Assembly: GCA_014584315.1 (NCBI GenBank) | Contig: JACTNA010000018.1 | Coordinates: 186,001 to 250,000 of the forward strand | Reading direction: 5' to 3' | DNA length: 64,000 bases | Source: Planctomycetota bacterium | GTDB lineage: Bacteria > Planctomycetota > Phycisphaerae > Phycisphaerales > UBA1924 | Shown: positions 1,080 to 44,522 of the stretch, one piece after another | Layout of the letters: each line of letters begins with the position of its first letter | Position numbering within the stretch: the stretch's first letter is position 1 | Translations under genes and position numbers: made by a program | Notes under the pieces: generated by a model | Databases searched by the model: none | Told to the model about the DNA's origin: nothing | The model's input: only the letters and a program-made list of their open reading frames with translations

Positions 1080-4000
1080 ATGCCCAGCCCCGCCGCGCCC
1101 GCATCCGTCGTCCATCGTGTCGAGGTGCGCCCCGCCGACCCGGCCTCCGACCCGCGCGGCCGGCGCGTCCTGGGCGACGCCCGCGCCGCCGGCTACCGGC
1201 TCGACTCCGTCTCGGTCGCCCGGGTCTACCTCCTCGAAGGATCGATCGAAGAAGCCGACGCCGGCGATCTCGCCCGTCGCCTGCTCACCGACCCCGTGGC
1301 GGAACGATCGACACTCGGCGCATCGCCCGCATCCGGCTCGGTCGTCGAGGTCCACCCCCTCCCCGGCGTCATGGATCCGACCGCCCAGACCGTCGCCGAC
1401 GCCATCCGTGATCTGACCGGCGAATCGGTCCGCGTCTCGACCGGCTGGCGCTACGACCTCACCGGCCCGGACGCCCCCCGCGCCGACGAGATCGCCCGCC
1501 GCCTGCTGGCGAACACGGTCGTTCACGCCGTGCACACGCGTCCGTTCCACCCGGACAGCCTCCCCACCGGCCGGCCCGCCGACCAGCGCGTGCGCCACGT
1601 CCCGCTCACCGCGCTGGAGGACGATGCCCTGGAACGCCTCAGCCGCGACGCGCACCTCTTCCTCAGCCTCGACGAGATGCGGGCGATCCGCGACCACTAC
1701 CGCACGCTCGGCCGCGAGCCGACCGACATCGAACTCGAGACCCTCGCCCAAACCTGGTCCGAGCACTGCGTCCACAAGACGCTCAAGAGCCGGATCCGGT
1801 ACCGCAACGGCGAAGCGGCAGAGTGGCAGAGTGGCGAAGTGGCAGAGACGCGCGATCCCCGATCGACTTCCGGCAGGGCCGATCCGATCGACTGGAGCAA
1901 CCGGCCCGGACACACCCTCCACCCCGACGGCTCCGTCGAGATCGACAACCTCCTCAAACGCACCGTCGCCGCCGCCACCCACGAACTCATCGCCGACGGC
2001 GTGGACTGGACCCTCTCCGTCTTCGAGGACAACTCCGGCGTCATCGCCCTCGACGACACCAACGCCGTCTGCATCAAGGTCGAGACCCACAACCACCCCT
2101 CCGCCATCGAACCCTACGGCGGCGCGGCCACCGGCATCGGCGGGTGCATCCGCGACGTCATCGGCACCGGACTCGGCGCCAAGCCCATCGCCAGCACCGA
2201 CGTCTTCTGCGTCGCGTTCCCGCAGAACCGGAACGTCGTGCCAGCCGGGTGCCTGCACCCGCGCCGCGTCCTCACCGAGGTCGTCGCCGGCGTGCGCGAC
2301 TACGGCAACCGCATGGGCATCCCCACCGTCAACGGCGCGGTCTGGTTCGACGACCGCTACGTCGGCAACCCCCTCGTCTTCTGCGGCTGTGTCGGGCTGC
2401 TCCCGCGCGACCGCGTGCGCGGCATGGCACGCCACGGCGACCTCATCGTCGCCCTCGGAGGCCGCACCGGACGCGACGGCATCCACGGCGCGACCTTCTC
2501 CTCCGCCGAACTCACCGACACCCACGCCGACGAGTTCGCACACGCCGTTCAGATCGGCAACGCCATCGAGGAGAAGCGCGTCCTCGACGCCATCCTCAGA
2601 GCGCGCGACGAGCACGGCGAGCCGCTCTTTCACGCCATCACCGACTGCGGCGCGGGCGGATTCTCCTCCGCCGTCGGCGAGATGGGCAGCCGCCTCGGCG
2701 CGGCAGTCAACCTCGACCGCGCCCCGCTGAAGTACGACGGCCTCACCTACACCGAAATCTGGATCAGCGAGGCCCAGGAACGCATGGTCCTCGCCGTCCC
2801 CCCCGAGAACCTCGACGCCCTGCGACGCATCTGCGACGAGGAGCACGTCGAGCTGGCGGTGTTGGGCGAGTTCGGCACTCCAGACAAGGACCTGGTCCTG
2901 CGCTACGGCGACGCGGAAGTCGGCCGCCTCTCGATGGACTTCCTCCACGACGGCCTGCCCATGCCCACACGCGAGGCCGTGTGGAATCCGAAAACGGCAG
3001 AAGCGGCCCGGGGCGCGAAGGGCGAGTCGCGGAGCGCCCCCTCCGTCGCCGACGCCCTCCTCGCGCTCCTCGCCCACCCCAACATCGCCTCCAAGCACTG
3101 GATCATCCGCCAGTACGACCACGAGGTGCAGGGCAACGCTGTCGTCAAGCCGCTGGTCGGCCCCGCCTCGCGAGGGCCGGGCGACGCCGCCGTCCTCGAA
3201 CCCGTCCCCGGCTCCGGCCGAGGCATCGCCATCGCCTCGGGCCTGGCGACCGGCATCGGCGATCCCGCCATCGGCGGCGACCCGTACCTCATGGCCCTCG
3301 CCGCCGTCGATGAGTGCGTGCGCAACCTCGTCTGCGTCGGCGCGGACCCGGCCCGCACCGCCATCCTCGACAACTTCTGCTGGCCCGGCTGCAAGGACCC
3401 CGCCAACCTCGCCGCACTCGTCCGCGCCGCAGAAGGCTGCTACGACGCCGCCAAGGCCCACCGCACCCCCTTCGTCTCCGGCAAGGACTCGCTCAACAAC
3501 CAGTTCACGACCGAGGACGGCCGCACCATCGCCATCCCGCCCACGCTCCTCATCACCGGCCTCGCCATCGTCCCCGACATCGCCCGCTGCGTCACGAGCG
3601 ACGCCAAGCGCCCCGGCAACGTCCTCCTCCTCATCGGCCGGACCTCCCCCTCCATGGGCGGGTCGCACTACCAGCACGCCATCGGCCTCGGCGATCCGGC
3701 CCGTTCGCTCGCCGACGAGGTCGCCGCCCGCGTCGAGTCCGTCGTCGGCCCACTCCCCGAGACCGCCCGCCGGCACGTGGACACGCTGCTCCACGGCATC
3801 GCGCCGCTCGTCGCCGAGCATCTCGGCGAGGCCGTCGCCCTCGGCGCAGCCAAGGCCGAGCAGGCCGTGCGCCGACTGGCGAAACTCGTCGGCCGCGAGA
3901 AGGCCGAGAGCCTCGAAGCCGAGGTCGGCCGCGAGCGCGCCGCCGCCATCGTCAACGCCATCGCCGACGCGGCGAAGCGCGGCTGGATCAGCCCGAGTGT

Positions 4001-34033: not shown

Positions 34034-34576
34034 TCACGCCCCGAACCGCCGCTCCATCTGCTCCCGGAACTCCTCGCTCTTGCCCGGCGCGATCGTCGCC
34101 CACCGCCACCCCTCGCTCCCCACCAGCGCCCGCGACACCAGCATGATCTGCCCCGTGTGGTACGCGCAGTGCGCCACCGCTCGCGTCACCGCCTGCGCCA
34201 CCGTGTGCGGCTCACCCCGGATCGTCACCACACGACCCATGTCCGCCTCCGTGAGCGACCCTACGGCCCCCAGCGCAACCGACCACCCTTCCTCCCAGAT
34301 CGCCATCAACCGCGTCCGAGGCTCGTGCCCCACCACGAACTCCCCATCCCGATGCCGCCACGGCTTCTCGCCGTCCGTGGTCAGAAAGTCCGTGAACCGG
34401 CTCCGCAACGACCCGGCCAGGTGCTTCACGATCACCGACACCGGATTCGTCCCCGGCGCGACCGCCACGTGCAGCCGATCCTCCGGCACCTGCCCCACCG
34501 CCTGCTCCGCCCACCCCTTCTGCTTGCGGAACTCATCGAGCCAAGCCGACCGGACGGTTTCGAGCGTTGGGTGCAT
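34034..34576 (-). CDS. DinB/DUF1572-like protein
   Basis: VIVKHLAGSLRSRFTDFLTTDGEKPWRHRDGEF ... VTRAVAHCAYHTGQIMLVSRAL. Confidence 0.75.
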   Translation of the reverse strand: MHPTLETVRSAWLDEFRKQKGWAEQAVGQVPEDRLHVAVAPGTNPVSVIVKHLAGSLRSRFTDFLTTDGEKPWRHRDGEFVVGHEPRTRLMAIWEEGWSVALGAVGSLTEADMGRVVTIRGEPHTVAQAVTRAVAHCAYHTGQIMLVSRALVGSEGWRWATIAPGKSEEFREQMERRFGA

Positions 34577-34626
34577 GGGTGATCAGCCCTTTGCTGCATC
34601 GTGCCGGCGGCAGGGTGGCGCCGACA

Positions 34627-34989
34627 TTAGCTTCGCTCCGCCGCCGCCGACGCGGAGAGTTTGAGGTCGGCAATCTGAACCATGAGTACCTTCATGCCGC
34701 GATCGCTTCCCTTGGAGTGACGTTCTCCCCGCTCAAAGTACGCGGCCTCACCCGCGCGGAGTTCAACGCGACGGCCGTCGCCACCCGCGACCCAGCCCGA
34801 CCCTTCGACTATGATGAACAGCTGACCGAAACCGGTCGGGTGTTCGCCGATTTGGCCGCCGGGTTCGAACAGCAGCCAATGCACATGAGCCTCGCCATCA
34901 CCGTCAGCAAGGAGCCGACTGGACGCACCCGTGGCCGCAAACAGGCTGATCGGCTCAGCATCAGCAGGGGAGAGCCGGATCAATCGCAT
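34627..34989 (-). CDS. Cupin-domain protein
   Basis: HVHWLLFEPGGQIGEHPTGFGQLFIIVEGSGWVAGGDGRRVELRAGEAAYFERGERHS. Confidence 0.82.
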   Translation of the reverse strand: MRLIRLSPADAEPISLFAATGASSRLLADGDGEAHVHWLLFEPGGQIGEHPTGFGQLFIIVEGSGWVAGGDGRRVELRAGEAAYFERGERHSKGSDRGMKVLMVQIADLKLSASAAAERS

Positions 34990-35389
34990 GTTGACGACTC
35001 CCAACGGCAGGGTGGCGCCGAGGTTCTCGCGCCGTGCCGACGAGATCGGCCCTGCAATCTCGGTGTTCCCGTCCCCGCGACGCGACGCACGCCGCTGCCG
35101 CCGAGCGACGCCTTGTTGCGCCACCAGCCTTTGGCGAGCATACCAGACCGCGAATCCTCCTCCAACCCTCTCCGTGGGCCTGCCGGGCCTGACCTCGACG
35201 CGGCAAGGCCCAAACGCCGGAGTCGTCCAAGCCCGCCGCAGCAACCTGCGCGGAGCGCAACGCGCCCCGCCCGTCGGCACGCCACGGCACCGAGATCGCA
35301 GAGCCGATCTCGGCGGCACGAATCGGACTTCCCGGCGTCACCCCGCCGGAATCGAGAACTGCCCAGCCGTCCCGGAACAGCGCACGAAA

Positions 35390-35411
35390 TGCCCCCCGAA
35401 GGACTCGAACA
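35390..35411. repeat. attL core
   Basis: tgccccccgaaggactcgaaca, identical to 43061-43082. Confidence 0.85.
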
Positions 35412-35767
35412 CCTGCGGTTTCCTTCGGGAAATGCGGGGGTTTCTGAATCGGGCGGCAGCAAATCCGGCAACAAAGGGGGTGGTTTTGTTTTGGTCCCCC
35501 GACGCCCCCGGCGACGCCCACCGATCCCGAGTTGGCGGCGGTAGTCGCGGCATGGCCCGACCTGCCCCCGGCGATCCGGGCGGGTGTGCTGGCGCTGGTG
35601 AAGGCGGCGACCCCCACAACGCCCCCCACGGCCCCGAGCGGGCCGGCTGGCGGGACGGGTGGCCCGACGACGTTAAGGTACTCCCGACCGAACCCGCGCC
35701 CCAAGGGCTGCGGGAACGGTCGCGGCACGGGACAGAGTTTGTTTCTCCAACCGGAAGGCGGCGACGC

Positions 35768-36031
35768 ATGGAACGGATCGCGGTGGTGGACGGGCTGACG
35801 CTGGCGGCGGTCTTGGACCGGATCGCCGGCGGTGGGCGGGTGGTGCTGACGTATGGCGGCGACGACGTGGCGGTAGTGGTCCGGCCCGACGACCTGAGCG
35901 ACGCGGCGACGGCGTACCTGCTGGAAGCGTTGGAGCGGGTGGACCTGTCCGACCTGCTGGCGAAGTTGGACGCCCCGCACCCTGTCACCCCGAACGGTCG
36001 CCCCCAAAGCCCCCCGGCGGGGGTTTCCTGA
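35768..36031 (+). CDS. Small protein of unknown function, Phd/antitoxin-like flavour
   Basis: MERIAVVDGLTLAAVLDRIAGGGRVVLTYGGDDVAVVVRPDDLSDAATAYLLEALERVDLSDLLAKL. Confidence 0.55.
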   Translation: MERIAVVDGLTLAAVLDRIAGGGRVVLTYGGDDVAVVVRPDDLSDAATAYLLEALERVDLSDLLAKLDAPHPVTPNGRPQSPPAGVS

Positions 36032-36068
36032 ATCGACGGCCCAAACTGACCCACGGAAGGGTATCACG

Positions 36069-36707
36069 ATGAACACGAACGAACACGCCCACGCCCCACG
36101 CCCGAAGTTTGACACCCTGTTCGCCGATCCCCGGCACTATCGCGGCGACCTGCGGCTGATGCGCACGGCGATCCGGCGCGGCTGGTTGAACGATGCCCCG
36201 CAAGCGGATCGGGATGCGCTGGTGGCCCGGTTTGAGCAAGCATCCGACGAACGGCGAGCCGACGACCCGGATACGCGGAACTTCCGGGCGCTGCTGGGCG
36301 AGTGTTACGCGATGATCGAACTGGAACGCGCGGACCAAGACCCGCTGCTACGGGCGCTGCGCTATTCGTGGGCTGGTGAACTGACCGACCGCAACACGGG
36401 CCGGCCCCGCGAGCGGTGGCACGTTGCGGACTACCCCAACCGGATCGACGCCAACGAACTACGCCGGCGGGCGAAGGCGGACGGGACGGACCTGCGGACC
36501 CTTCACGCGATCGACGTGCGGCCCGCTGACAAGCCCGACGACCCCGGCGAGCGGATCGCCCTGGCGGTGGTCGCGGACGCCCGATACGGCTGGCGGGTGT
36601 GGCTGGTGTGTCCCCGCTGCAAGTGTCGGCGGGTGCACCTGTATCCCGTGCGGGCTGGCGTGCGGTGTCGGAAGTGTGCGGGCATCGCATACGCGGACGG
36701 CGAATAA
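36069..36707 (+). CDS. Unknown protein with C-terminal zinc ribbon
   Basis: C-terminal VCPRCKCRRVHLYPVRAGVRCRKCAGIAYADGE (CxxC...CxxC). Confidence 0.6.
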   Translation: MNTNEHAHAPRPKFDTLFADPRHYRGDLRLMRTAIRRGWLNDAPQADRDALVARFEQASDERRADDPDTRNFRALLGECYAMIELERADQDPLLRALRYSWAGELTDRNTGRPRERWHVADYPNRIDANELRRRAKADGTDLRTLHAIDVRPADKPDDPGERIALAVVADARYGWRVWLVCPRCKCRRVHLYPVRAGVRCRKCAGIAYADGE

Positions 36708-36755
36708 TCACGGAAACGGGCATCGGGATTGATCCCCCGATGAACGGATCGGGCT

Positions 36756-36787
36756 GGGGTCTTGGCGCTCACTCGCCCCAAGACCCC
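36756..36787. other. Large hairpin in intergenic DNA of the element
   Basis: ggggtcttgg[cg]ctcact[cgcc]ccaagacccc; 10-bp perfect outer stem extendable past a 2-nt bulge. Confidence 0.65.
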
Positions 36788-36819
36788 GCCCGACCGGCCC
36801 GAGAAAGGCGAGTGAACCA

Positions 36820-37995
36820 ATGGCAAGGAAGCCCGCGCCGACGAAGGCGCACGAACCGGAAGCAAGCCCCGCCGATCAAGCGTTCGGTGCGGCCCGCGCG
36901 TTTGTTGAACACCTGGCGACGCTGGCGTATCACGCCCGACACTTTCAACCACGCCCCGACAAGCCGGACGCATGGCAAGACCCGGCGATGACCTACGCGA
37001 TGGCGTTCGTGGCGTGGTTCGACCTGTCGCACCTGCTGACGCCGGCGGTTCGCACCGAAGCCCGCCGGGTGTATCCGCCCGGTTCGCCGGCGATCAGGTT
37101 GGGCAAGGCGAAGCCGACGCCCACGGTGATCGAAGCGGTGGCCGATGAGTTGGGCGTCTACTTCCGAAACACGGTGTACGCGGGCCGGCGGCATCCGTTG
37201 GAACCTGACCGCGAGCGGGTAGCGGACGAAGCGAAGGCCCGCGCGACGGCCCGACAAGTCGCCCAAGGCAAGCCGGCGGAACCGTTCGGCTGGGGCGCGG
37301 ACTTCGATGAACTGATGAAGAAAGAAACCCGCGCGGCGGTGCGGGAACGGCTGGGGATCAAGACGCTGGGCGATGGTTGGATGCTGATGGTGGACGAATG
37401 GAAGAAACAAGACCGCGAGCGGGGAGAGTCGGCGCTATCTCTGCTGCGGTGCGGTTCGATTGACTTCGACGACCTACAGACGCAACTGATACGCGAAGCC
37501 GAAGCGGTGATCGCGGCGGCGAGCAAGCCCAACGCCCCGACGATCGACCCCGCGATACTGGCCCGGCTGGAAGCGGCTGTGGCTGGGCTGCCTGCGGTGT
37601 TGGAGGGAAACCGCGCCGGGTTTGAGCGCGTCGCGGGCGTGATCGAATCACTGGGCGCACGGGATGACGACGAAGCCCCGGCGGCGAAGTTGCCCGAGTT
37701 GAAGGCCCACGATCGGCAAGCGTGGCAACTAGCAACCCTTCACGGGATGACCCAAGACAAAGTGGCGTTGGCGTTGAACAAGGAACACGGGACGACCTAC
37801 ACCCAAGGGCAAGTGTCGCGGATGATCGCCCGCGCCAAGGCCCACGCCGACGCGAACGGGCTGGCCGAGAAAGTGGCGGGACCGATCGACCGACCCCGCA
37901 CCGTTGACCCTGGACGGCTGGAACTTGGGGCGAGAGTCGATAAGCGGAAGCCCCGCCCGAGCGATATGGCGCGGGTGAATGACGACGACGAATAG
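36820..37995 (+). CDS. Element-encoded protein with C-terminal HTH, unknown function
   Basis: Long ORF; C-terminal DRQAWQLATLHGMTQDKVALALNKEHGTTYTQGQVSRMIARAKA resembles a sigma-type/HTH segment. Confidence 0.6.
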   Translation: MARKPAPTKAHEPEASPADQAFGAARAFVEHLATLAYHARHFQPRPDKPDAWQDPAMTYAMAFVAWFDLSHLLTPAVRTEARRVYPPGSPAIRLGKAKPTPTVIEAVADELGVYFRNTVYAGRRHPLEPDRERVADEAKARATARQVAQGKPAEPFGWGADFDELMKKETRAAVRERLGIKTLGDGWMLMVDEWKKQDRERGESALSLLRCGSIDFDDLQTQLIREAEAVIAAASKPNAPTIDPAILARLEAAVAGLPAVLEGNRAGFERVAGVIESLGARDDDEAPAAKLPELKAHDRQAWQLATLHGMTQDKVALALNKEHGTTYTQGQVSRMIARAKAHADANGLAEKVAGPIDRPRTVDPGRLELGARVDKRKPRPSDMARVNDDDE

Positions 37996-38000
37996 CGATT

Positions 38001-38071
38001 GGTATGCGCTCAAAATGCCCTGTTTTCTGCGGGGTATGCGCGGGTATGCGCTGTGATTCGTGGATATGCGC
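38001..38071 (+). repeat. Four iteron-like direct repeats GGTATGCGC
   Basis: Copies at 38001, 38033, 38043 (exact) and 38063 (gatatgcgc). Confidence 0.75.
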
Positions 38072-38119
38072 CGGCAACGAAGGGAAGCCCAATGCGGCCC
38101 CCCGCCCGGAGTATCCACG

Positions 38120-38320
38120 ATGGAACAAGAAACGGAACTGCTGACGGCCCGAGAGTTGGCGAAGCGCCTGCGCGTGTCGCCCGAAACTGTCCGGGCGTGG
38201 GCGCGGCGCGGGTGCATCCCGACGCTGCGGCTATCGCCCAAAGTGATCCGCTACAGCGCCGAAGCGGTGTTGGCGGCACTGTCCGCCACGCCGGCGAAGG
38301 GGGTGGCGCGTGGCAAGTGA
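38120..38320 (+). CDS. Excisionase-family HTH protein 1
   Basis: LLTARELAKRLRVSPETVRAWARRGCIPTLRLSPKVIRYSAEAVLAAL. Confidence 0.8.
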   Translation: MEQETELLTARELAKRLRVSPETVRAWARRGCIPTLRLSPKVIRYSAEAVLAALSATPAKGVARGK

Positions 38321-38519
38321 CACAAACACCCCGACGACGACGGCCCCGCTGCTGGTGGACCGGCGCGAAGCCGGACGGCTGCTGGGCGTGTCGCCCGGCA
38401 CGATCGACAACTTGCGGACACGCGGCGAACTCCCGAGCGTGAAACTGCTGTCGCGTCGGCTGTTCGACGTGGCGGACCTGCGGCGGTACATCGAAGCGCG
38501 GAAGGGGGTAGGCCAGTGA
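38310..38519 (+). CDS. Excisionase-family HTH protein 2
   Basis: LLVDRREAGRLLGVSPGTIDNLRTRGELPSVKLLSRRLFDVADLRRYIEARKG; GTG start overlapping previous gene. Confidence 0.78.
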   Translation: MASDTNTPTTTAPLLVDRREAGRLLGVSPGTIDNLRTRGELPSVKLLSRRLFDVADLRRYIEARKGVGQ

Positions 38520-38689
38520 ACACGCCCCCAAGAAACGACGCGGCCCCGCTGGCGGGCGGGGCTGGCGTCAATGGTCCGAACACTTCACCCGATTCTACGG
38601 CGGTGGTGGCGAGCGGGCGGAAGCGCAAGACCCGTAGCAACTGCCCCGCGACGGTGTGGGTGCTGTCCGAGTTTGCACCCAAGCCGTAA
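38516..38689 (+). CDS. Small basic ORF (57 aa), unknown
   Basis: GTGA overlap with previous stop; MNTPPRNDAAPLAGGAGVNGPNTSPDSTAVVASGRKRKTRSNCPATVWVLSEFAPKP; absent from the supplied ORF track. Confidence 0.4.
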   Translation: MNTPPRNDAAPLAGGAGVNGPNTSPDSTAVVASGRKRKTRSNCPATVWVLSEFAPKP

Positions 38690-38700
38690 GGGGGTGCGGC

Positions 38701-41187
38701 ATGAGCGACCCCGTACAACGAATCCTGACGGCCCTACGCGAACACGGACACGAACCCCGCAAGGCGGGCGCGGGCTGGTGCTGCAAGTGTCCGGCCCACG
38801 ATGATCGGAACCCTTCCCTGTCGATCCACGCCGGCGACGACGGGCGGGCGCTGGTGAACTGCCACGCCGGTTGTACCGTCGATGCGGTGTGCGGAGTGAT
38901 CGGGCTGCGGCCCGCTGACCTGTTCATCCCTGACCCGAGCCGGCGCAACGGACACGCGCCCAAGACCCGGCGACGTGGCGACGGCGACGAAACTACACGG
39001 AAGCCCGCACGCGGCGGGGATTCTGTCACCGTCGCCAGTGACGCCACGGGCGGGCGCACGTTCCCCACGGCCCGCGACGCGGTGGCCGAGTTGGAGCGGC
39101 GGCACGGCGCGCGATCGACGACCTGGACCTACCACGACGCCGGCGGCGATCCGGTGGGGCTGGTGGTGCGGTGGAACACGCCCACCGGGAAAGACGTGCG
39201 CCCGGTGTCGCGGAAGGCGGACGGATCGGGCTGGTGCATCGGCGGGATGCCCACGCCACGCCCGTTGTACGCCCTTCCTGACCTGCTGGCGACGCCGGCG
39301 GCGCGGGTGTTCATCGTCGAAGGCGAGAGAGCGGCGGACGCGGCCCGAGCGGTTGGGCTGCTGGCGACGACAAGCCCGCACGGGTCGAAGTCGGCGAGCA
39401 AGGCGGATTGGTCCCCGGTGGCTGGGCGTGAAGTGGTGATCCTCCCCGACCACGACGACGCCGGCGAGCGGTACGCCGACGACGTGGCGCGGCTGGCGAC
39501 GGCTGCGGGCGCGAAGTCGGTGCGGGTGGTGCGATTGGTTGAACTGTGGGCAGGGATGCCCGAAGGCGGCGACATGGCGGACCTGGTGGAGCATCGCGGC
39601 GGGGACGTTGACCCGATCCGCGCCGAAGTCGAAGCCCTGACGGACAAGACCGACGCGGACACGGTGACACCGGAAGCCCCGGCGGTCCCCGCGTTCACGC
39701 CCTTCCCCGCTGACGTACTGCCCGAGCCGATTCGGGGATTCGTCACCCAAGCGGCGAAGGCGATCGGGTGCGATGCGTCTTACATCGCCCTGCCCCTGCT
39801 GTCGGGGCTCGCGTCGGCGATCGGCAACACCCACCGGATCGCGTTGAAGCGTGGGTGGACCGAGCCGGCGATTGTGTGGACGGCGATCGTGGGCGATAGC
39901 GGTACGGCGAAGTCGCCCGCGCTGGAGTTGGGTCTACGCCCGATCCGCAAGCGGCAACACGACGCGATGAAGGAACACGCGGAAGCGATGAAGCAACACG
40001 CCGACGCGCTGGCGATGCACGAACGCGACGCGGCACACTGGAAGAAATCCAAGTCGGACACGCCCCCGCCGGCCAAGCCCGAAGCGCCGATCGCGGATCG
40101 GTGTTGGACCGACGACGCGACGACCGAAGCCCTGGCGGTGCTGCTGCAACAAAACCCGCGCGGGCTGCTGATGGTGCGGGATGAACTCGCCGGGTGGTTC
40201 AACTTCGACCGCTACGCCGGCGGCAAGGGCGGCGGGGACGCGGCGAAGTGGCTGGAAATGTTCGGCGGTCGCCCGATGGTGGTGGATCGCAAGACGGGCG
40301 GCACGTTGTACGTCCCCCGCGCGGCGGTGTCGATCGCCGGTGGCATCCAACCGGAAACCCTGCGGCGGGCGCTGGGGCAGGAACACCGGGATAACGGGCT
40401 GGCGGCGCGGCTGCTGCTGACCTGTCCCCCGCGCAAGCCAAAGCGGTGGACCGAAGCGGACGTGAACGCGGACACCGAAGCGGCGGTGGCGCTGGTGTTC
40501 GATCGGCTGTTCGGGCTGACGCCGGAAACCGACGACGACGGGGACGAACGGCCCCGGCTGGTGACGCTGGCCGATGACGGGAAGCGGGCGTGGGTGACGT
40601 TCTACAACGAACACGCCGGCGAGCAAGTGAACCTGTCGGGCGACGAAGCGGCGGCGTGGTCGAAGTTGGAGGGGTACGCGGCGCGGCTGGCGCTGGTGGT
40701 TCACCTGACCCGCTGGGCGGCGGGTGACGCCACGCTACGCGATGCGTCGCGGGTCGATGAGGCGAGCATCGCGGCGGGCGTGGTGTTGGCCCGGTGGTTC
40801 GGTGACGAAGCCCGGCGCGTCTATGCGATCCTGGGGGAGTCGGACGAAGGGCGCGAATCCCGCCGGTTGGCGGAGTGGATCGAACGCAAGGGCGGCACGG
40901 CGACGGTGCGCGACCTGACACGCGGCCCACGCGAGTATCGGGGCGATCCCGAGCGGGCGGCGAAGGCGCTGGGCGAACTGGTGGCGGCGGGTGTCGCGGT
41001 GTGGGTTCACGATGACCACGGCCCCAAGGGCGGGCGTCCGACCGATCGGATTCGGCTGGTGTCGCGGCGTGGTGACACCGGCGACGGCGACGAAACCCCC
41101 GTGAACGCCGGGAATCGCGTGGGTTCTGTCACCGTCGCCACGGTCGCCAAGCCCACGAACGCCGGCGACGGCTGGGGGGAACTGTGA
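38701..41187 (+). CDS. Primase-helicase: CHC2-type zinc finger, Toprim-like, DUF3987-type ATPase
   Basis: WCCKCPAHDDRNPSLSIHAGDDGRALVNCHAGC; VFIVEGERAADAARAVG; VVILPDHDDAGERYADDVARLA; AIVGDSGTAKSPALELGLRPI; LLMVRDELAGWFNFDRY. Confidence 0.85.
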   Translation: MSDPVQRILTALREHGHEPRKAGAGWCCKCPAHDDRNPSLSIHAGDDGRALVNCHAGCTVDAVCGVIGLRPADLFIPDPSRRNGHAPKTRRRGDGDETTRKPARGGDSVTVASDATGGRTFPTARDAVAELERRHGARSTTWTYHDAGGDPVGLVVRWNTPTGKDVRPVSRKADGSGWCIGGMPTPRPLYALPDLLATPAARVFIVEGERAADAARAVGLLATTSPHGSKSASKADWSPVAGREVVILPDHDDAGERYADDVARLATAAGAKSVRVVRLVELWAGMPEGGDMADLVEHRGGDVDPIRAEVEALTDKTDADTVTPEAPAVPAFTPFPADVLPEPIRGFVTQAAKAIGCDASYIALPLLSGLASAIGNTHRIALKRGWTEPAIVWTAIVGDSGTAKSPALELGLRPIRKRQHDAMKEHAEAMKQHADALAMHERDAAHWKKSKSDTPPPAKPEAPIADRCWTDDATTEALAVLLQQNPRGLLMVRDELAGWFNFDRYAGGKGGGDAAKWLEMFGGRPMVVDRKTGGTLYVPRAAVSIAGGIQPETLRRALGQEHRDNGLAARLLLTCPPRKPKRWTEADVNADTEAAVALVFDRLFGLTPETDDDGDERPRLVTLADDGKRAWVTFYNEHAGEQVNLSGDEAAAWSKLEGYAARLALVVHLTRWAAGDATLRDASRVDEASIAAGVVLARWFGDEARRVYAILGESDEGRESRRLAEWIERKGGTATVRDLTRGPREYRGDPERAAKALGELVAAGVAVWVHDDHGPKGGRPTDRIRLVSRRGDTGDGDETPVNAGNRVGSVTVATVAKPTNAGDGWGEL

Positions 41188-41633
41188 ACCCGCACCCTCC
41201 CAACCCCCACGAACTCGCCCCGCTGCTGCTGGCCCTTGGGCGGGCGGGGATCGAACTGGCCCCGCACCCGACCGACGCGGGCCGGCTGCGGCATCGCCCG
41301 GCGGACCTGCCCCCCGACCTGTCGTCGCGGCTGCGGATACACCGGGCGGCGGTGGTGGGGCTGCTGGTGGACGGGTACGCCCCCGCCGGCGATGACGCGG
41401 GGTACGTCTTGGGCGAACGGCTGGGCGTGGCCGATGGGTTGGGGATGCCCACGCACCCCGGATCGGTGGCGTGGCTGGTGGCGGTCGGGGAGTCGATGGG
41501 GTGTAGTTGCGGCGTAGCAACGGGTGGGGTACACTTGGGGCATGGCGAAACTGACGAACGCGATTCGGGCGGCGGTGAAGGCGAGCGATCAAACGCCCTA
41601 CGCGATCGCCAAGGGTGCGAACGTGGCCCGTAG
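41184..41633 (+). CDS. Small TubC_N/primase-accessory-like protein
   Basis: NPHELAPLLLALGRAGIELAPHPTDAGRLRHRPADLPPDLSSRLRIHRAAVVGLLVDG; start overlaps primase stop; 3' part overlaps the XRE gene. Confidence 0.5.
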   Translation: MNPHPPNPHELAPLLLALGRAGIELAPHPTDAGRLRHRPADLPPDLSSRLRIHRAAVVGLLVDGYAPAGDDAGYVLGERLGVADGLGMPTHPGSVAWLVAVGESMGCSCGVATGGVHLGHGETDERDSGGGEGERSNALRDRQGCERGP

Positions 41634-41769
41634 TCAACTGTCGCGGCTACTGAGCGGTGAAAGCGGGATGACGGTGGACACGATCGAACGGCTGGCGGAC
41701 TACCTGGGGTTGCGAATCACGATCGAACCCAAGGGCCGCACGAAGGGCAAGACCACGAAGGGACGGTGA
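41542..41769 (+). CDS. XRE-family HTH regulator
   Basis: TNAIRAAVKASDQTPYAIAKGANVARSQLSRLLSGESGMTVDTIERLADYLGLRI. Confidence 0.88.
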   Translation: MAKLTNAIRAAVKASDQTPYAIAKGANVARSQLSRLLSGESGMTVDTIERLADYLGLRITIEPKGRTKGKTTKGR

Positions 41770-41772
41770 CGC

Positions 41773-43218
41773 ATGGCGAGCATCGGATGGGAAGGCAAGC
41801 GGGCGCGCATCGTGTTCCGCGATTCTGCGGGGAAGCAGCAAACCCTGCGGCTGGGCGAGTGTCCGAAGGACTACGCGAGAAGCGCGAAAATGGCGATCGG
41901 GCATCTCGTGATCGCCAAGCGGCATGGGAGCGTGCCCCACCCCGACGCGGTGCGCTGGCTGGGCGGCATCGACGACGTGCTGTACGCCCGCGTCGCGGCG
42001 CTGGGGTTGTGCCAGCCACGGGAGGGCGCGGCGGTGGTGACGCTGGGCGCCTTGCTCGACCGATTCGACGCGGCGGGTGCGGTGAAGCCGACGACGCAGT
42101 ACAAATACCGCCAAGTCGCGGACAGTCTGCGGGCGTTTCTGGGCGCGGATGCCCCGCTGGCGTCAATCACGCCGGCCCACGCCGACAACTGGCGCAAGTC
42201 GATCGCCGAAGCGAAGGCGAACCCCGACGACAAGACCGAGCCGGCCAAGACTCTGGCCCGCGCCACCGTCGCCAAGCGGGTTGTGATCGCAAAGAGTGTG
42301 TTTCGGAAGGCGGTGCGGTGGGGGTTGATCGCGTCCAATCCGTTCGCCGACCTGCGGGCCGGTTCACAATCGAACCCCGATCGCGCGTTCTACGTCACCG
42401 TCGAAACCATCCGGGCGATCCTTGCGGTGTGCCCCGATGACCAATGGCGGGCGATCGTGGCCCTGTCGCGGTTCGCCGGGTTGCGATGCCCTTCCGAAAT
42501 CGTGGCCCTGCGGTGGGGTGACGTGAACTGGGAACGCGGGCGGCTGATGGTGCGATCGGTCAAGACCGAAGGGCACGAAGGCCACGCGGTACGGGTGGTC
42601 CCGATCGCCCCCGAGTTGCGCCCGATCCTGCAAGACCTGTTCGACCGCGCCGAAGTCGGGGTGGAAGCGGTTGTACCCCGGCTGCGCGATCCGGCGATGA
42701 ACCTGCGGACCCAGTTTGAGCGAATCATCGCCAAGGCGAGCGTGAAGCCCTGGCCCCGGCTGTTCCACAACATGCGGGCATCATGCGCGACGGATTGGGT
42801 GGAGCGGTTCCCCGTCCACGTTGTCGCGGGCTGGTTGGGGCATAGCCCGATGATCGCGGCCCAACACTACCTGCAAACCCGCGATGCACACTTCGACCTT
42901 GCGGCGGGTGTTGGGGGTGTCGGGAAGGCGGCAGCAAATCCGGCAACACACACGCGCCAAAGCGCGCCCACGGCGTCAAAGCCCAAAACACAAAACCCCG
43001 AAATCCCTGCGGAAATGGTGGGGTGTGGTGTCGGGTGTGACCCGGTGGAATATGGGAAAGTGCCCCCCGAAGGACTCGAACAGCGGGGCGGGCGGCTTTC
43101 GTGGGTCGCCCTCCGCCGACAGGCCACAGTATACCCCCGATCCGCCGCGGCGGGGACGAGCCTGGCAGCCAGAGGCCGAAGGCACCCCCGCATTGACTGC
43201 CCCCACCCCTCCGCGTAG
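41773..43218 (+). CDS. int: Tyrosine recombinase/integrase; C-terminus crosses attR
   Basis: Catalytic-type motifs RFAGLRCPSEIVAL, LFHNMRASCATDW, VAGWLGHSPMIAAQHYLQT; last ~45 codons are chromosomal sequence after the att core. Confidence 0.9.
   Translation: MASIGWEGKRARIVFRDSAGKQQTLRLGECPKDYARSAKMAIGHLVIAKRHGSVPHPDAVRWLGGIDDVLYARVAALGLCQPREGAAVVTLGALLDRFDAAGAVKPTTQYKYRQVADSLRAFLGADAPLASITPAHADNWRKSIAEAKANPDDKTEPAKTLARATVAKRVVIAKSVFRKAVRWGLIASNPFADLRAGSQSNPDRAFYVTVETIRAILAVCPDDQWRAIVALSRFAGLRCPSEIVALRWGDVNWERGRLMVRSVKTEGHEGHAVRVVPIAPELRPILQDLFDRAEVGVEAVVPRLRDPAMNLRTQFERIIAKASVKPWPRLFHNMRASCATDWVERFPVHVVAGWLGHSPMIAAQHYLQTRDAHFDLAAGVGGVGKAAANPATHTRQSAPTASKPKTQNPEIPAEMVGCGVGCDPVEYGKVPPEGLEQRGGRLSWVALRRQATVYPRSAAAGTSLAARGRRHPRIDCPHPSA
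43061..43082. repeat. attR core
   Basis: tgccccccgaaggactcgaaca, identical to 35390-35411. Confidence 0.85.
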
Positions 43219-43278
43219 CGTTGCGGTCCCCGGGCGGGCCTCTGTTCTGCCGGTCGGGTGCTTCCCGGAGTCGCCACC

Positions 43279-43479
43279 ATGCTTCCCACCCATCGCCAGA
43301 GCCACGGCCGATCCCGCCGACGCCGCTCGCACCACGCCCTGCGTCCCGAGCGACCCACCGTCTGCCCCCTCAGCGGCATGCCCAAACTCCCCCACCGGGC
43401 CTGCAAGGAGTCCGGCTACGTCCGTCCGGGCCTGCGCATCCGCGTGCCCAAACTCGGGATCGGGACGCCCAGAGACTGA
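43279..43479 (+). CDS. rpmF: 50S ribosomal protein L32
   Basis: MLPTHRQSHGRSRRRRSHHALRPERPTVCPLSGMPKLPHRACKESGYVRPGLRI; directly upstream of plsX. Confidence 0.8.
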   Translation: MLPTHRQSHGRSRRRRSHHALRPERPTVCPLSGMPKLPHRACKESGYVRPGLRIRVPKLGIGTPRD

Positions 43480-43487
43480 GAGACAGC

Positions 43488-44522
43488 ATGAGGCTGGCCA
43501 TCGACGTGATGGGCGGCGATCACGCGCCCGACGCCATCCTGAAGGGATGCGTGGACGCGCTCCCGATCCTCGCCCCCGACGACCACCTCGCCCTCGTCGG
43601 CCCGCCACGCATCATCGAGGACTACCTGCACGAACGCGGCGTCCGCGACCCGCGGCTCTCGATCGAGTCGGCCGAGCAGGTCATCACCATGGATGACTCG
43701 CCCGCCAAGGCCGTCCGGGCCAAGCCCGAGTCCTCCATCGTCAAAATGGCCCTCCTCGGCTCGCGCAAGCACGAACGCCCCGCCGACGTCGTCCTCTCAG
43801 CCGGCAACACCGGCGCCTGCGTCTCCGCCGCCATCATGCACATGAAGCGGCTCCCCGGCGTCCACCGCCCGGGCATCGCCGTCACCATCCCCGCCTTCCA
43901 CGGCCCAGTCGTCCTCTGCGATGCCGGCGCGAACCCCGAACCGCGACCCTCGCACCTCTGGCAGTACGGCCTCATGGCCGAGACCTACTCCCGCGTCGTC
44001 CTCGGCATCGCCAGCCCGCGCGTCGGCGTCATGAACATCGGCGCGGAGGAGGGCAAAGGCTCCGACCTCGTCCGCGAGACACGCGACCTCCTCCGCAAAA
44101 CCCCCGGCATGAACTTCGTCGGATACGTCGAGGGCCGCGACTTCTTCGACGGCGTCGCCGACGTCATCGTCACCGACGGCTTCGTCGGCAACACGCTCCT
44201 CAAGATGGCCGAGGGTCTTGCCAAGAGCCTCTTCACAGCCATCGCCCACGAAGTCCTCGCCGCCGACCCCGAACTCGCCATGCAGTTCGAGCCGATCGTC
44301 AAGCGCATCTACACCAAGAACGACTACCACGAGTACGGCGGCGCGCCCCTCCTGGGCGTCAACGGCGGCTTCTTCATCGCGCACGGCTCGAGCGAAGCGC
44401 GTACCATCCGGGCCGCGGTCCGGAACTGCCGCGACTTCGTCTCCAGCCACGTCAACGAGGCGATCGTGGCCCGGCTGGACGAAGTCGCGCACCTCGCCGA
44501 ACCGCAACGGGAGCACGCATGA
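43488..44522 (+). CDS. plsX: Phosphate acyltransferase PlsX
   Basis: RLAIDVMGGDHAPDAILKGCVDAL; LSAGNTGACVSAAIM; VTDGFVGNTLLKMAEGLA; YHEYGGAPLLGVNGGFFIAHG. Confidence 0.95.
   Translation: MRLAIDVMGGDHAPDAILKGCVDALPILAPDDHLALVGPPRIIEDYLHERGVRDPRLSIESAEQVITMDDSPAKAVRAKPESSIVKMALLGSRKHERPADVVLSAGNTGACVSAAIMHMKRLPGVHRPGIAVTIPAFHGPVVLCDAGANPEPRPSHLWQYGLMAETYSRVVLGIASPRVGVMNIGAEEGKGSDLVRETRDLLRKTPGMNFVGYVEGRDFFDGVADVIVTDGFVGNTLLKMAEGLAKSLFTAIAHEVLAADPELAMQFEPIVKRIYTKNDYHEYGGAPLLGVNGGFFIAHGSSEARTIRAAVRNCRDFVSSHVNEAIVARLDEVAHLAEPQREHA

Follow-up and report, generated by a model that had tools for sequence, protein, structure and literature searches.

Described phage satellites include P4, phage-inducible chromosomal islands (PICI), capsid-forming PICI (cfPICI), PLE, PICMI, VEIMEs and tycheposons (PMC11389934). 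PICI and P4-like satellites combine an integrase, an AlpA-like regulator and a primase with genes of the terS, ppi, sid, psu and delta types. The phage-inducible chromosomal minimalist islands (PICMI) of Vibrionaceae are 6.1 kb long, and their model requires an integrase (PF00589 or serine equivalents), AlpA (PF05930 or PF12728), a primase with DUF3987 (PF13148) or DUF5906, and fis at the integration site. In PICMI115, excision requires alpA, int and a small int-overlapping gene (iolg), and replication requires the primase (PMC10803314). Islands of the Islander class are recognised by a tRNA gene (tDNA), a displaced tDNA 3′ fragment and an integrase on the tDNA side (PMC4383910). Here we describe an element in a Planctomycetota bacterium, located at 35390-43082 of a window of 64,000 nucleotides (positions 186,001 to 250,000 of contig JACTNA010000018.1, assembly GCA_014584315.1, 3.33 Mb, completeness 97%, labelled G000). 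We consider it probable that this is a small satellite-like integrative element docking at a tRNA gene. It seems, from comparison of related loci, to belong to a large, apparently undescribed family of phage-satellite-like islands, in which the messenger RNA leader of one gene, p3, is a candidate new RNA class. Membership was compared with PICMI, tRNA-borne islands, PICI/cfPICI/P4, integrative mobilizable and conjugative elements (IME/ICE), Rfam families and cis-regulatory leaders. G-numbers label genomes and L-numbers label compared loci; G001 and G002 are genomes of the same genus.

The element is bounded by exact 22-bp direct repeats, TGCCCCCCGAAGGACTCGAACA, whose starts lie 7,671 bp apart. 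Allowing up to 3 mismatches, no third copy was found in the assembly, and 0.01 matches of such a core were expected by chance in the window. A preliminary description, made from the window alone, had already taken these repeats as boundaries, and they proved to be the sole pair genome-wide. It overlooked the tRNA target and its loss, the structured RNA and the arm sites; the tRNA origin of the repeat was invisible to it because the tRNA body is deleted. In fact, 21 of the 22 bp of the core equal the 3′ end (T-loop side) of tRNA-Lys(CTT). G001 and G002 have one core each, forming the 3′ end of an intact minus-strand tRNA-Lys(CTT) located before rpmF-plsX. The preliminary description had named a missing empty site in relatives as evidence against an element; judged by this comparison, the single core in the intact tRNA of both congeners is the empty site. 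The right flank aligned with both congeners up to the core. The left flank was rearranged and aligned only to about 185 bp from the core, so the junction is exact to the base on the right and approximate on the left. Docking at the tRNA 3′ end, an integrase at attR, arm repeats, the empty site in congeners and loss of the resident tRNA body can all be read directly from the aligned sequences. The features were as follows (ORF, open reading frame; HTH, helix-turn-helix; RBS, ribosome-binding site).

35390..35411, no strand: attL core, a 3′-end fragment of tRNA-Lys(CTT), the tRNA of which would read on the minus strand.
35452..35473, plus: putative left arm-type integrase site, GGCGGCAGCAAATCCGGCAACA; the same sequence occurs in L167.
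35532..35798, plus: remnant of a conserved left-end ORF, DPELAAVVAAWPDLPPAIRAGVLALVKAA (cluster C6, 8 elements; intact in L116 at 479-721).
35768..36031, plus: p1, Phd/YefM-like, 87 aa (PF02604, E 9.5e-5, below the cut-off; identity 87% in L183 and 78% in L050).
36069..36707, plus: p2, zinc-ribbon protein, 212 aa, cargo along with p1 (PF12760, E 0.0016, below the cut-off).
36715..36819, plus: leader RNA with covariation support, a three-way junction with a pseudoknot (36769-36777 / 36807-36815) over the p3 RBS.
36820..37995, plus: p3, 391 aa, helical N-domain and C-terminal HTH, putative domain-swapping regulator (alignments A1 and A2).
38060..38320, plus: p4, HTH_17/MerR-like, AlpA/excisionase candidate (PF12728, 6.9e-9; phrog_66 excisionase, 4.1e-9).
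38310..38519, plus: p5, HTH_17, excisionase candidate (PF12728, 7.7e-10; phrog_66, 1e-9).
38516..38689, plus: p6, small conserved ORF (homologues in L033, L042 and L050).
38656..41187, plus: p7, Toprim primase and DUF3987 helicase, start likely at 38701 (PF13148, 6.4e-72; phrog_2373, 7e-36; phrog_6088, 1e-26).
41184..41633, plus: p8, conserved protein without assigned function (identity 67-82% across several elements).
41524..41769, plus: p9, XRE/Cro-type HTH, 3 nt upstream of int (PF13443, 7e-7).
41773..43218, plus: p10, tyrosine integrase (Int) with a C-terminus running past attR (PF00589, 8e-12; phrog_1, 4e-38).
42927..42948, plus: putative right arm-type integrase site, an exact repeat of 35452-35473, also found in relatives including L167.
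43061..43082, no strand: attR core; a 52-bp tRNA-Lys(CTT) body is gone from this right edge compared with G001 and G002 (scar GAAC/AGCGGGG, the slash marking the join).

Searches of the element with Pfam, PHROGs and PADLOC recovered a tyrosine integrase, two HTH_17 proteins, a DUF3987/Toprim primase-helicase and an XRE protein, and recognised no capsid, portal, large terminase, relaxase or type IV secretion system (T4SS). These results agree with the preliminary description, in which two Xis-like HTH proteins, a primase-helicase, an XRE protein and an integrase had been named (each now backed by Pfam, and p4 and p5 by the phrog_66 excisionase family as well) and no capsid, terminase, relaxase or T4SS was visible; for the terminase, the databases bear this out for the large subunit. 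Its observation that all genes share one strand was correct, every one being on the plus strand. So was the strand bias and codon choice unlike that of neighbouring genes: GC skew was about -0.2 in the flanks but changed sign inside the element, to about +0.1, and third codon positions had G3 0.45 and C3 0.36 in the element versus 0.30 and 0.44 in long ORFs of the flanks. The label Phd-like for p1 found a match, though a weak one, and the label TubC_N-like for p8 had no match in Pfam.

Three of the four mandatory PICMI genes were thus present: the integrase, AlpA (PF12728, in both p4 and p5) and the DUF3987 primase. The fourth, fis, was absent, the integration site being tRNA-Lys(CTT) before rpmF, and we therefore regard the element as PICMI-like and not as a PICMI. 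Its size (7.7 kb) is in the same class, and it also shares with PICMI the direct repeats, a small gene beside int, the lack of a capsid-remodelling or packaging gene and, in its relatives, defence cargo. Unlike PICMI, it targets tRNA and transfer-messenger RNA (tmRNA) genes, resides in planctomycete hosts and adds the XRE protein, p3, p8 and the leader RNA. No dedicated match to the packaging or capsid-redirecting genes of PICI, cfPICI and P4 (terS, ppi, sid, psu) was found in it, and delta-type genes were likewise not recognised. As in Islander-class islands, a tDNA 3′ fragment, a cognate tDNA and an integrase between them were found in the relatives; the window has both cores, but its regenerated tDNA was destroyed by the 52-bp deletion. 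A further difference from that class is the family's own replication and regulation block.

The 52 bases of tRNA body beyond attR (CTTCAACCC...GGGAGGC) were missing from the window, and the flank resumed at AGCGGGGCGGGCGG, matching both relatives after their tRNA. ARAGORN detected no tRNA over the window. Genome-wide there were 44 tRNAs, with tRNA-Lys(TTT) typed by ARAGORN as the only Lys isoacceptor, while both isoacceptors were retained for Gln, Glu, Arg-AGR and Leu-UUR. A BLAST search of the genome with the congeners' tRNA as query did not detect an intact tRNA-Lys(CTT). Because of these two findings the strain, whose assembly is 97% complete, is probably without tRNA-Lys(CTT). AAG accounts for 82% of Lys codons in the long ORFs of the window, and its decoding would be left to tRNA-Lys(UUU). 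Escherichia coli copes with the UUU isoacceptor alone, thus the loss should be viable. Since the tRNA was deleted, the C-terminus of p10 has been extended over the scar, with 60 residues past match position 421 versus 19 in Lys-type relatives. We rejected the possibility that the integrase routinely destroys its tRNA. The intact tRNA begins 19-122 nt past the integrase match at 28 of the 29 other integrase loci, and the loss is therefore specific to the copy in the window and not a mechanism of the family. The exception (L124) has a decayed tRNA-Lys, with a 94%-identical, better-preserved copy elsewhere in the same genome. A remnant with p8, the XRE gene and an 88%-identical integrase (L165, G075:C3) lay next to a decayed tRNA-Lys whose 94%-identical copy is located elsewhere in the genome. 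The loss in the window shows that such an element can end up deleting a tRNA isoacceptor.

Inside both ends there is a second exact 22-bp direct repeat, at 35452 and 42927, which the preliminary description did not mention. Most of the elements tested had a direct repeat whose copies lay 37-56 nt in from the left core and about 108-150 nt ahead of the right one, and the arm sequence of the window recurred (GCAGCAAATCCGGCAACA) at similar places in the independent Lys-type element L167. The two copies in the window lie in different reading frames (GSKSGN at the left, AAANPAT in Int), and coding therefore does not explain the repeat. We infer that the inner repeats are arm-type integrase binding sites.

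As the preliminary description had proposed looking for, relatives with the same gene order were found in planctomycetes, at other tRNA and tmRNA genes; together with the empty site of the congeners, they strongly support its reading of an integrative element. From the left, the order in the family was attL, arm sites, cargo, leader RNA, p3, HTH_17 genes (one or two at p3 loci), primase-helicase, p8, XRE, int and then, on the opposite strand, the tRNA or tmRNA. Some loci missed genes, and in some another replication protein replaced p7. This order was found at Phe, Ser, Tyr, Lys, Met, Gly, Arg and Val tRNAs and at tmRNA, with Glu and Leu added via the integrase. The elements delimited by core repeats of 14-67 bp were 7.2-15.5 kb long and lay at tRNA-Phe, Ser, Tyr, Lys, Met, Arg and Val and at tmRNA. 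The cores were either short and on the T-loop side (14-26 nt) or long, extending to the anticodon arm (35-67 nt). A complete relative of 7,687 bp (L116) was located in tRNA-Val(CAC) of a named metagenome-assembled contig (Phycisphaerales bacterium OFTM8, JAJDDM010000035.1), and the hosts of the relatives were Phycisphaerales-type Planctomycetota. The integrase was present in 73 of 163 genomes of the host family, so that these elements are common there, and p3 homologues were found in 19 of the 301 genomes of the order; the scan of named genomes for p3 used a profile from three closely related N-domains. No satellite family in Planctomycetota was found in the literature searched, the coverage of which was partial. 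The cargo of relatives included type I, type III and Eco57I-type restriction-modification systems, SIR2_2/ThsA-like proteins, a UmuC-like polymerase, FTR1 and VWA. Two other genera had p2 proteins with 99% and 94% identity. In L183, from one of these two genera, a 1.4-kb left block that includes p2 had 92% nucleotide identity and the block after p4 had 95%, with the p3-p4 cassette between them swapped. The swapped cassette and the 99%-identical p2 point to recent horizontal movement.

Several further loci were recorded. In many genomes the N-terminal primase half and the C-terminal DUF3987 half of p7 matched separate proteins, as if the halves had been exchanged. At L049 (G213:C54, 1-825) tandem elements shared one tRNA-Lys(CTT), the integrase ending at the left core of the next element. 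The genome of the window itself contains a second DUF3987 protein (37%) and a p8-like gene upstream of an intact tRNA-Thr(CGT) at a contig edge (L121, G000:C29:1-4337), perhaps a second, distant element.

A decayed prophage remnant would account for the frameshift in the left-end ORF, the extended Int, the lost tRNA and the PHROG matches of some genes. However, many independent elements, each 7-9 kb long, had this same compact gene set; the set is no random selection of phage genes, and PHROGs revealed no structural gene in it, which makes this explanation highly improbable. The left-end ORF (region 35390-35798) begins within the att core in L116 and contains ...AWPDLPPAIRAGVLALVKAA; it was kept in many elements, and its remnant in the window is out of frame relative to the att-proximal start.

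HTH_17, DUF3987 and integrase genes are the core of Bacteroidota mobilizable elements too. The element might accordingly be thought an integrative mobilizable element whose oriT or relaxase escaped recognition and which is moved by a helper conjugative system and not by a phage; plasmids with DUF3987 homologues did occur, 10 of them mobilizable and 6 conjugative among the matches listed. Nevertheless, neither a relaxase nor a relaxase with a T4SS was detected by Pfam in the ORFs of the element, which is therefore not an IME by the relaxase criterion; p1, p2, p6 and p8 are small, and the fold of p3 matched nothing, relaxases included. We consider mobilization of this kind distinctly unlikely.

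A conserved stretch of about 105 bp starts 8 nt past p2 and ends at the p3 start codon (ATG at 36820), and it was 77-99% conserved while both neighbours diverged. Its predicted fold (-59 kcal/mol versus -41.7 ± 3.9 for shuffles, z -4.43) is a three-way junction with three helices:

36717-36721/36797-36801, plus: P1.
36722-36727/36736-36741, plus: P2.
36745-36765/36778-36796, plus: P3.

The apical loop (36769-36777), UCACUCGCC, has a complementary partner in GGCGAGUGA (36807-36815), a segment that shares bases with the p3 RBS. When 11 sequences were aligned with MAFFT, without fitting, two-sided changes were seen at 14 pairs, compared with 4.0 ± 1.6 in shuffles and at most 3 when the partners were slid. 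Among 35 model-aligned sequences the count was 31 of 39 pairs, against 17.0 ± 2.0 in shuffles and no more than 17 after sliding, and 90.3% of the cells were paired. The pseudoknot alone, whose pairs lay outside the model that built the 35-sequence alignment, was 85.7% paired and had 48 compensated cells versus 20.4 ± 3.6. One of the sequences served to derive the structure; of the controls, shuffles keep relatedness and the slide control removes it. Plain sequence conservation or coding constraint was rejected as the cause, since sliding the partners abolished both pairing and covariation. Covariation shows that the p3 leader folds as a three-way junction, with the apical loop paired to the RBS.

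Rfam 15 gave no match to the leader at E ≤ 1 over 34500-43600, and the best hits of a short-stretch Rfam scan were on the minus strand with 18 and 15 bits, against cut-offs of 84 and 112. With a covariance model, the leader was found at 39 places in 29 of the 163 family genomes, and at least 22 of these places were followed, about 3-6 kb further downstream, by a p10-type integrase of the same strand. Across the rest of the phylum few genomes had the leader (9 of 382, some of the host family being among those sampled), and seven of these nine occurrences were upstream of a same-strand DUF3987 primase. An ORF of at least 212 aa began at the 3′ end of the leader in 34 of 35 copies, and the N-termini of these regulator ORFs were unrelated to each other. 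Conserved structure, compensatory changes and a fixed place before an ORF are what is expected of a cis-regulatory leader, and the p3 leader shows all three. One element (L166, G283:C92) had two leader copies, at 2696-2807 and 3777-3884, the first of which precedes a very short ORF (56 aa).

The stretch could also be a DNA element, such as an origin, an operator or a recombination hotspot, given that it marks a boundary of the p3-p4 cassette exchange and that long hairpins are found at origins. Yet G-U pairs were frequent (UG in 17 of 35 sequences at one pair, GU in 10 at another), a point in favour of RNA; the segment that pairs with the loop in the pseudoknot overlaps the RBS immediately upstream of the start codon, and the strand was always that of the ORF. 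We therefore read the leader as RNA, a DNA element being decidedly improbable.

SAM-II and preQ1 are riboswitches or leader RNAs with the RBS hidden in a pseudoknot. The p3 leader shares with them the loop-RBS pseudoknot ahead of the start codon, but it is a three-way junction, has no Rfam match and is found on a mobile element family. It may act as a translational switch for p3. In the alignments, unrelated N-domains of p3 were fused to the same C-terminal HTH, and the same N-domain was fused to unrelated C-terminal HTHs, so that p3 would be a domain-swapping DNA-binding regulator. The preliminary description had found p3 unlike anything recognised, and this held in a structure search: its AlphaFold model (pLDDT 67.6) had no Foldseek match below E 0.001. 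The structural model of p2 was of poor quality (pLDDT 55.7). A tentative but realistic possibility is that the leader is a new cis-regulatory RNA class that hides the RBS of a regulator with a freely swapped N-terminal, putatively sensing, domain. It would then serve as the induction switch of a planctomycete satellite family and sense a common signal, either helper-phage infection or a metabolite, with the exchangeable specificity domains acting downstream of it. If the leader is the switch, the question of how minimal satellites sense the moment to leave has an answer open to direct testing, and ligand screens gain a candidate RNA class.

We suggest that in the quiescent state the pseudoknot would mask the RBS and p3 would not be produced. 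A trigger, which may be a phage-made factor, a metabolite or stress, would open the pseudoknot, and p3, with its exchangeable N-terminal domain and HTH, would switch the downstream operon. The HTH_17 proteins p4 and p5 could then act as excisionases with Int to release a circle, p7 could replicate it, and a helper phage might package and spread the element, by analogy with PICMI. The restriction and SIR2-type defence genes of relatives would benefit the host.

Several observations weigh against this scheme. No circle, helper phage, cos or pac site or packaging gene was seen. When IMG/VR was searched with the primase, the integrase and p2 for an excised or virion form, p7 had no match and only two distant integrase matches were returned, of which the shorter contig carries the tRNA and is thus integrated. 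Primase matches in phage and plasmid records were partial, at no more than about 34% among the matches listed. The p4 protein also matched phrog_57 (small terminase, terS) weakly (2.4e-7), the excisionase match being stronger. The fold of p3 has no match, and its label as a regulator therefore derives from the HTH and the position; the OFF and ON logic of the RNA and its trigger are likewise what we infer. The copy in the window may be partly decayed, as the frameshift and the extended Int suggest. The satellite-like label of the preliminary description thus stands as far as gene content, size and the defence cargo of relatives go, but the helper, the packaging signal and the excised circle that would complete it were not found. 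The element might instead be an integrative plasmid that replicates itself, or a simple genomic island, needing no dedicated helper and spreading by generalized transduction, vesicles or uptake; this would fit its own primase-helicase and the absence of a visible hijacking gene in PHROGs, PICMIs being likewise without recognisable ones. On the other hand, the gene set and defence cargo fit satellites, and a conserved block of several regulators together with a leader RNA implies a programme that is induced. This reading is unlikely, though it deserves consideration, and we continue to favour a satellite-like element.

Immediately left of attL, at 35005-35348, there is a unit resembling a miniature inverted-repeat transposable element, with inverted repeats of 61 nt (77%). 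A second copy (71%) was located at G000:C20:1104-1408, and related ends were found in G002.

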